DNA of 47,130 nucleotides, taken from positions 1-47,130 of the IMG/VR virus record IMGVR_UViG_3300015171_000008; one strand, 5' to 3'. Under the pieces are notes generated by a model. It searched no databases. It was not told where the DNA came from and saw nothing but the letters and a program-made list of their open reading frames with translations. A program made the translations under genes and the position numbers. Shown here in pieces: positions 6,916 through 20,817 of the stretch (within the stretch, counting starts at the first letter, position 1; every line of letters starts with the position of its first letter). This stretch comes from a virus.

Positions 6916-6992
6916 TGGTGCGCTCGATCAGATTCGAACTGATAAACAAGAAATTTTAAGTTTCTTTGCGTTACCGATTAGCATACGAGCGC
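6916..6992 (-). tRNA. tRNA with UAA anticodon (reads UUA, Leu)
   Basis: A full cloverleaf is visible on the minus strand. The acceptor stem is GCGCTCG/CGAGCGC (6986-6992 and 6920-6926), then A73 and an encoded CCA (6916-6918). The D arm has three good pairs and a GG-containing loop. The anticodon arm is AGAAA/TTTCT with loop CTTAAAA, giving anticodon UAA. The variable loop has 5 bases, and the T arm ATCAG/CTGAT has loop TTCGAAT. A UAA anticodon reads the leucine codon UUA, but bacterial leucine tRNAs normally have a long variable arm, which this one lacks. Charging identity is therefore uncertain. Confidence 0.85.
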
Positions 6993-17669: not shown

Positions 17670-17698
17670 GCCATAACCGACTAGGCTCTGCGTGTCAA
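17670..17698 (-). promoter_or_regulatory. Leftward promoter of the RHH gene
   Basis: Minus-strand TTGACA (17693-17698), 17-base spacer, TATGGC (17670-17675). It faces away from the rightward promoter at 17722-17750. Its -35 and that of the other promoter form a perfect inverted repeat GTGTCAA...TTGACAC, a natural repressor site. Confidence 0.5.
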
Positions 17699-17721: not shown

Positions 17722-17750
17722 TTGACACGTCTTTTTCCATAGGCTAGACC
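17722..17750 (+). promoter_or_regulatory. Rightward promoter of the structured RNA and replication genes
   Basis: TTGACA (17722-17727), 17-base spacer, TAGACC (17745-17750). The -10 is weak (three of six). The predicted transcript start, about 17757, falls at the first base of the first hairpin (17758) of the structured region. Confidence 0.5.
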
Positions 17751-17756
17751 GTCAAT

Positions 17757-18050
17757 CGCTTGCCAACGATCCCTTGCTCGGCAAGCAGGCTGTACCGGCA
17801 ACCTTAAGGCGGCGATGACTCATGCATTGGACTGCCACCGGGGAGTTACGTCCATGCTGCGGTGCTGGGGCATGAAAACGGCGAATGCCTTACTTAATAA
17901 GGCTACCGGCACAACAATTCCTCGAAAGGGGAATAGCTAGCTTGATGTTCGGCTATTAACCATGAACCCGGGTCAGGCATACCGTAAGTCCTAGGGAAGG
18001 GTCGATAAATCGACTGCTTGATACCCGCAATGCCAAGCTAGCTTTAATTA
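17757..18050 (+). ncRNA. Putative structured non-coding RNA or long structured leader
   Basis: About 290 bases without a plausible gene hold many stable helices. GCTTGCC/GGCAAGC pair at 17758-17764 and 17780-17786. A bulged 8-bp stem runs 17824-17832/17850-17857, and its loop can pair with downstream CGGTG (17836-17840/17860-17864), a pseudoknot. GGCAT/ATGCC pair at 17869-17873/17885-17889, and GCCTTA/TAAGGC at 17887-17892/17898-17903. A 7-bp hairpin with GAAA tetraloop spans 17917-17934. AGCTAGCTTG/CAAGCTAGCT, 10 bp, pair long-range at 17935-17944/18034-18043. GTCGA/TCGAC with a TAAA loop lies at about 18001-18014. The region seems richer in GC than its flanks. No known family is assigned; ORF-less HEARO-type RNAs are worth testing. 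Confidence 0.65.
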
Positions 18051-18062
18051 TTTGGAGATCAA

Positions 18063-18203
18063 ATGAAACTTCCCTATTGGATTCAAACAGGAAAGCATTT
18101 CATTTGGTATCGAAAAGTACGCGAATGCCGCGATTACTGGAATGCACGTTGGGTTCACTATTTGACAATTGGACCTAAAACTTTCAAATGGGAAACCAAA
18201 TGA
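18063..18203 (+). CDS. 46-residue Trp/Lys-rich protein
   Basis: The ATG at 18063 follows TTGGAG at a good distance, just after the structured RNA. The product (MKLPYWIQTGKHFIWYRKVR, then DYWNARWVHYLTIG) is rich in Trp, Tyr and Lys and looks like a small beta fold. Its TGA overlaps the ATG of the next gene (18200) as ATGA. It is the first gene of the rightward operon. Function unknown. Confidence 0.6.
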   Translation: MKLPYWIQTGKHFIWYRKVRECRDYWNARWVHYLTIGPKTFKWETK

Positions 18204-20716: not shown

Positions 20717-20791
20717 CCAGAGCCAATGCGGGCTATCGCGCGATCAGCGGCTTAACACCGTAGGCCAACAGACCTGATAGCTAACTTAATT

Positions 20792-20817
20792 AATAGGGCT
20801 TCAGCCCTATTATTTTA
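20792..20817 (+). terminator. Factor-independent terminator
   Basis: AATAGGGCT (20792-20800) and AGCCCTATT (20803-20811) are a perfect 9-bp inverted repeat, followed by ATTTT. It lies after the ssDNA-binding gene and could attenuate transcription into the nuclease and helicase genes. Confidence 0.75.

Follow-up and report, generated by a model that had tools for sequence, protein, structure and literature searches.

A phage early leader with at least two conserved structured RNA modules ahead of a replication operon

Background

To our knowledge, few phage leader RNAs are understood beyond put and the nut sites. The put RNA of HK022 consists of two stem-loops and suppresses termination via the zinc-binding domain of the RNA polymerase beta' subunit; putL, of about 70 nt, lies just downstream of an early promoter, has A3 as its first paired base and exerts its effect over at least 10 kb (PMC9378689). 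Like HK022 putL and putR, the RNA described here is structured, directly follows an early phage promoter and precedes early genes. It lies in IMG/VR virus record IMGVR_UViG_3300015171_000008, and the window denotes this whole stretch of 47,130 nt (47 kb).

The rightward early operon of the window encodes a Sak4-like annealing protein, a Cas4-type exonuclease, a helicase, a clamp and a DNA polymerase, and a primase-helicase gene runs leftward from the divergent control region. A good intrinsic terminator is present within the operon, just 5' of the Cas4-exonuclease gene (20791-20812). The closest annotated phages include Pseudomonas phage 73 / Kakheti25-type siphoviruses, with a protein identity of 40-49%; their divergent control region is short, whereas that of the window is long. 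No DNA match to this region was found in annotated phages and plasmids, and no relative was found with protein P0002 as a marker for close phages. Scans of viral contigs yielded more than 100 related loci, which are L-numbered.

Results

Boundaries of the leader

The leader is framed by the following features:

17722-17750, plus strand: rightward early promoter, with -35 TTGACA (17722-17727), 17 nt and -10 TAGACC (17745-17750)
17670-17698, minus strand: divergent promoter of the regulator/primase operon, with TTGACA (17698-17693), 17 nt and TATGGC (17675-17670)
18044-18057, plus strand: U-rich stretch TTAATTATTT, then the SD GGAG (18054-18057), read from the sequence, with CTTTAATTATT common to L183
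18063-18203, plus strand: first ORF of the operon, 46 aa, for which no Pfam match was found

The start site of the rightward promoter is predicted, not mapped, at about 17757. Its -10 element is weak and was not flagged by a consensus promoter scan; the same form of promoter recurs at the equivalent place in nearly all relatives, and the promoter stretch CTTTTTCCATAGGCTA is common to the window and L183. The first helix begins 7 nt after the -10 element, i.e. at the predicted +1, in agreement with the first-pass annotation, which had placed the promoter start at the first base of this helix. That annotation also had the RNA end just before the ribosome site of the first replication gene. The ribosome site is indeed found 10 nt downstream, but the first ORF has no recognisable function or replication identity, and the Sak4-like gene is only the fourth in the operon. 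The stop codon of the 46-aa ORF overlaps the probable start of the ORF that follows (ATGA at 18200). An inverted repeat at 18051-18115 (83% over 18 nt) could base-pair part of the coding sequence of the first ORF with its own SD and start codon, which is a possible further translational control of this ORF.

Neither a uORF nor an ORF of at least 60 aa fitting the region was found on the plus strand of the leader. A scan of the window with ARAGORN reported a single tRNA-Leu at 6916-6992 and no tRNA or tmRNA in the leader.

Folding of the whole leader

A single structured unit of about 290 nt, as originally proposed, is not supported. The fold of the whole 294 nt is chance-like (z=-0.95), with 37 of 200 shuffles folding equally well, and the number of long stems does not exceed that of mononucleotide shuffles. 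Instead, the leader comprises at least two modules that have different relatives. By part, the fold z-scores are -0.07 for module 1, -2.37 for the middle segment and -2.34 for module 2, the latter two being a moderate improvement over shuffles. The case for a structured RNA is therefore based on comparative evidence, from L002 for module 1 and L183 for module 2, rather than on folding energy. Individual stems that had been noted before, namely a perfect 7-bp hairpin at the 5' end, a GAAA-tetraloop stem and a 10-bp long-range stem closing the 3' half, are all present at the coordinates listed here and below. The middle segment, for which no relative was found, including its GAAA hairpin, contains these stems:

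17850-17934, plus strand: middle segment as a whole
17887-17892/17898-17903, plus strand: hairpin from the stem listing
17917-17923/17928-17934, plus strand: GAAA-loop hairpin from the stem listing
17862-17868/17906-17912, plus strand: possible long-range pairing from the stem listing

Module 1 and its relative in L002

17758-17843, plus strand: module 1, covariance model match to the L002 leader
17758-17764/17780-17786, plus strand: P1, perfect 7-bp hairpin
17787-17793/17798-17804, plus strand: P2, with loop ACCG
17808-17817/17825-17829 and 17832-17836, plus strand: P3
17794-17798 with 17838-17842, plus strand: candidate pseudoknot between ACCGG at the P2 loop and CCGGG

Each module has two firm sequences, and the E-values of the models are rough. 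When the window alone was used to build a covariance model (R2), the L002 leader was the sole other match in 616 kb (E=0.015); with filters switched off, it was matched at E=4.5e-5 in 58 kb. Module 1 constitutes the entire leader of L002, with the three hairpins retained. Since MAFFT misplaced the P1 hairpin, a model-based alignment was used, which is biased towards the structure. In this alignment, and with a structure that was fitted to the window's own fold, 43 of 43 scored cells pair and six pairs show compensatory changes on both sides. Eight of 500 shuffles were as good, and slid alignments paired 23-51% of cells. The sequence AGGYUGUACCGGCARCCUUAAGG is nearly invariant between the two. 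In the whole leader of the window, the predicted pair probability of P2 is 0.01; support for P2 comes from L002 and from conservation. The possible pseudoknot noted earlier is kept in both sequences, but its pairing is invariant and it remains a candidate.

Module 2 and its relatives

17935-18043, plus strand: module 2, covariance model match to the L183 leader
17935-17944/18034-18043, plus strand: H1, 10-bp closing stem
17947-17952 and 17954-17959 / 18018-18023, 18025-18027 and 18029-18031, plus strand: H2
17967-17969 and 17971-17972/17990-17991 and 17994-17996, plus strand: H5
18000-18005/18010-18015, plus strand: H4

A model built from the window only (R1) detected the L183 leader with E=2e-5 in 402 kb. 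Module 2 constitutes the entire leader of L183 and is, apart from the promoter, the sole alignable non-coding stretch between the two contigs (blastn: 77% identity over 123 columns, E=6e-23). The fold H1(H2(H5,H4)), which was picked with L183 and its L038 likeness in view, suits both sequences, and 100% of cells pair. Two pairs are changed on both sides, from G-C to A-U in H2 and from C-G to G-C in H4. Slid alignments paired 15-47% of cells, and 134 of 500 shuffles were as good, so that with two sequences this count is weak by itself. The mean pair probability of H1 in the whole leader is 0.96, and the junction sequences UAUUAACCAUGAACCCGGGUCA, GGGAAGGGU and ACUGCUUGAUACC are conserved.

The minimum-energy fold of module 2, with a hairpin GUUCG/UGAAC and GGGUCA/UGAUACCC, was rejected, as the changes from the window to L183 break or half-fit it. 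It was replaced by H2 because these changes are compensatory there: G to A together with C to U, and G.U to A-U, the latter outside the counted pairs. In the window, the resulting consensus fold is 3.6 kcal/mol less stable than the minimum-energy fold.

A third sequence is suggestive of a further member. The L038 leader folds strongly by itself (z=-4.55), adopts the architecture of module 2 and contains GCYAUUAACC, GGUCA and GGGAARGG-hairpin-CUGYUUGA in the same order. It scored 17.3 bits (E=3e-4 in 211 nt), and with the R3 model it was the sole other match listed (E=4.2 in 872 kb); in a sequence-only comparison with the window, it did not fall under the listing threshold of p<0.03. The pattern GGGAARGGN{8,16}CTGYTTGAN{1,3}CCC occurs in 21 stretches of the viral contigs and in a leader only at L038, which is not independent evidence because the pattern was drawn after L038 had been seen.

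Strand, coding potential and mosaic composition

Summed over the four module folds, 14 G.U pairs and one A.C were counted on the plus strand. On the minus strand, the 14 G.U pairs would become A.C mismatches and the one A.C would become a G.U. A minus-strand RNA (fold z=-2.93) was ruled out by these counts and by promoter direction, as the minus-strand promoter lies to the left of the RNA region and points away from it. Another reading is a DNA-level element, such as a replication origin or operator, whose RNA folds would be a by-product or a replication primer. The divergent region adjoins the primase, and a local minimum of cumulative GC skew lies nearby, although gene orientation also switches there. 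The 14 G.U pairs of one strand and the compensatory changes indicate RNA, and this reading is very unlikely.

Within module 2, the window and L183 differ by indels of 13, 10 and 8 nt, none of which is a multiple of three. This is in line with the earlier statement that no gene fits the region, and conservation of coding in one frame, which had been named as evidence against an RNA, was not seen. Changes that keep the proposed pairs in homologues had been named as the test in favour, and such changes were found for module 1 with L002 and for module 2 with L183. From these sequence comparisons, a real conserved structured RNA is almost certain.

In whole-contig searches, module 2 was found only in the window and L183, and module 1 only in the window and L002, so that neither relative carries the module of the other. 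The leader of the window therefore looks mosaic: both its promoter and its module 2 are of the L183 type, and an L002-type module and an unmatched middle are set between them.

Searches for known RNA families

The first-pass annotation had considered a remnant of a mobile RNA and advised a search against all Rfam models, in particular HEARO, group I introns, GOLLD, ROOL and raiA. No family match was found. With the Rfam 15 models, no match at gathering level was obtained in the RNA region of the window, a local search at E<=5 returned four weak matches to unrelated families far under their cut-offs, and the leaders of the relatives gave no family match, only tRNAs elsewhere. Neither module core was found in 84,980 bacterial and archaeal genomes, and no description of these RNAs was found in the open-access literature. 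As Rfam, annotated phages, plasmids and bacterial-genome scans yielded none, the HEARO and intron readings fail. A mobile or catalytic remnant (HEARO/omega, group I intron or self-cleaving ribozyme), for which only the initial impression of many helices speaks, is thus extremely improbable.

The exact core motif TACCGGCARCCTTAAGG occurs at six loci in viral contigs, two of which are real and belong to one phage type. The relaxed motif TGTACCGGCAN{22,42}CACCGGG was discarded, as its 86 stretches are apparently chance occurrences in coding DNA except for the known phage.

Leaders of the relatives at the same site

Nearly all relatives have a TTGAC-16/17-TA promoter at the equivalent place, and the leaders downstream of it differ completely. 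In a scripted measurement, 42 of 76 distinct leaders were shorter than 60 nt; the window is counted among them by error, since the script used an ORF start within the RNA. About a dozen relatives carry a tiny uORF with a strong SD at the leader site (L212, L242, L228, L236/L209, L193/L028, L208, L198, L194, L210, L231, L056/L072 and L005). In several, this is followed by a canonical terminator-like hairpin and a U-run just 5' of the first gene, for example in L212 (MISPG*), L228 (MR*), L236 (MSIRR*) and L194 (MTGG*); further peptides are MRADT* and MSRLPKK*. These leaders are apparently leader-peptide attenuators, and their tails resemble CTTTAATT, which follows H1 in the window.

A third leader RNA family was found in two relatives:

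L039, from 4178, plus strand: leader RNA, fold z=-2.35
L200, from 2694, minus strand: leader RNA, fold z=-2.79

Its closing stem, UCUGGUGA/UCACCAGA versus UCUAGUGA/UCACUAGA, shows a G-C to A-U exchange around a nearly constant core. In L039/L200 and in L038, the closing helix spans from +1 to just before the gene.

In three relatives, tRNA genes lie inside the early leader, between the promoter and the first gene (L060:3238-3312, L065:2008-2084 and L077:3683-3837), so the site can carry RNA cargo. This has a bearing on the possibility that a small RNA is cut from the early transcript and acts in trans, e.g. against host defence. The modules do swap like cargo, but no processing signal or terminator that would release such an RNA was detected, and the SD and a gene follow within 10-20 nt; we regard this possibility as quite unlikely.

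Other tRNA genes of the relatives occur within the primase-helicase ORF, which stays open across them; they have its strand and frame and fall in an interdomain linker:

L002:5882-5955
L183:3945-4093
L024:2628-2781
L025:2795-2948
L028:2256-2409
L039:2856-3011
L038:2690-2764
L199:3847-3924
about 15 more loci

They are mostly Gln-TTG and Met-CAT and once Tyr, and some ORFs cross two tRNAs. Processing of these tRNAs would cut the primase message in those relatives; no tRNA was found in the primase linker of the window. In L027 (3-2549, minus strand) and also in L221, the primase carries about 320 additional residues close to its Walker A motif (TGRGKE), a position typical of inteins.

Discussion

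The earlier suggestion of a long structured leader starting at the first base of the promoter finds support in homologues that differ in sequence but retain the pairs. The best overall explanation, to which we assign a probability of about 0.4, is a 5' UTR that folds from +1 into tandem RNA domains and acts in cis on the operon. Cis action is itself very likely, and the leader probably controls the expression of the replication genes; most likely, it gates or stabilises the early replication message.

In this mechanism, the first transcribed bases would form tandem compact domains, with module 1, the unmatched middle and module 2 in succession. In module 2, H1 would enclose a three-helix junction with conserved bases, resembling an aptamer on its P1 stem. 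Directly behind the 3' arm of H1 come the U-rich stretch and the SD, and the formation and stability of H1 would set the traffic of RNA polymerase or ribosomes into the operon, as in an attenuator or riboswitch. The reader of the junction may be a phage or host protein, a small molecule or an RNA. Pairing from +1 would also shield the 5' end of the early message.

Gating as the main mode is favoured tentatively. The uORF-terminator relatives have an attenuator layout at the same site and promoter type, and the helix-closed leaders of L039/L200 and L038 are likewise consistent with it. However, the U-rich UUAAUUAUUU after H1 is a poor terminator tail, the H1 loop comprises about 90 nt, and neither a ligand nor two exclusive states with separate support are indicated anywhere. 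Since L002 has module 1 only and no such closing helix, a gate cannot be common to all. Moreover, a helix start at +1 is unnecessary for attenuation and suits 5'-end protection or a put-like RNA equally, and these two readings are close rivals.

Pairing of the 5' nucleotides keeps RNase E and RppH off the ompA mRNA, and the sole job of the leader might be to stabilise the message in this way. Among seven structured leaders (window, L023, L183, L038, L039, L200 and L190), which include no fewer than four unrelated sequences, the distance from the -10 element to the first helix is 6-8 nt, compared to 13-16 nt in the uORF or tRNA types. Nevertheless, a plain hairpin would suffice for this purpose, conserved junction sequences and two tandem modules would be left unexplained, and +1 is predicted only. 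Stabilisation as the sole function is therefore unlikely.

A put-like antiterminator acting in cis, in which the nascent leader binds the host RNA polymerase and downstream terminators are ignored, would agree with helices that begin at +1 and with the terminator inside the operon. However, many relatives of any leader type have a strong terminator 5' of the Cas4-exonuclease gene, several of them with leaders shorter than 30 nt, and none was detected there in L002, which carries module 1. As in-operon terminators do not track leader type, put-like action has no specific support. The modules are also not close to the two-stem plan of put, and no element is common to L183 and L002; we consider this reading rather doubtful.

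Beyond gating, a speculative and improbable idea is that, in this phage group, exchangeable RNA domains (module 1, module 2, the L039/L200 RNA, tRNAs and uORF-terminator units) are docked at +1 of the early operon. Some of these would be new protein-free elements, forming a class beside put, that reprogram the polymerase of the host or sense the condition of the infected cell. Two or more RNA structures with no Rfam entry are joined like building blocks at a single promoter. The natural single-module relatives, L002 with module 1 and L183 with module 2, are ready controls, and phage control of early replication genes via the first transcribed bases is thus directly testable. Surveying one promoter site across relatives can reveal many alternative answers to the same control problem.

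Comparison with known systems

The RNA of the window is ornate and structured like HEARO (OrfB-associated RNA), group I introns, GOLLD, ROOL and raiA, some members of which occur in phages or mobile elements. It differs from them in having no Rfam 15 match, and no mobile-element gene was seen adjoining it. Compared by description only, HK022 put has two stem-loops, whereas the window has three hairpins in module 1 and a closed three-helix junction in module 2, and no link of its RNA with downstream terminators was found. The closing helix around a junction with conserved bases, near a U-rich stretch and an SD, recalls riboswitch or attenuator leaders; unlike these, the RNA has no Rfam family or known ligand, consists of two unrelated tandem modules and is paired from +1. 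The leader-peptide attenuators of the relatives (L212, L228, L236 and L194) use a uORF of 2-7 codons and mostly a canonical terminator-like hairpin, whereas the leader of the window, which has no uORF, shares with them the promoter type, the site and the operon.
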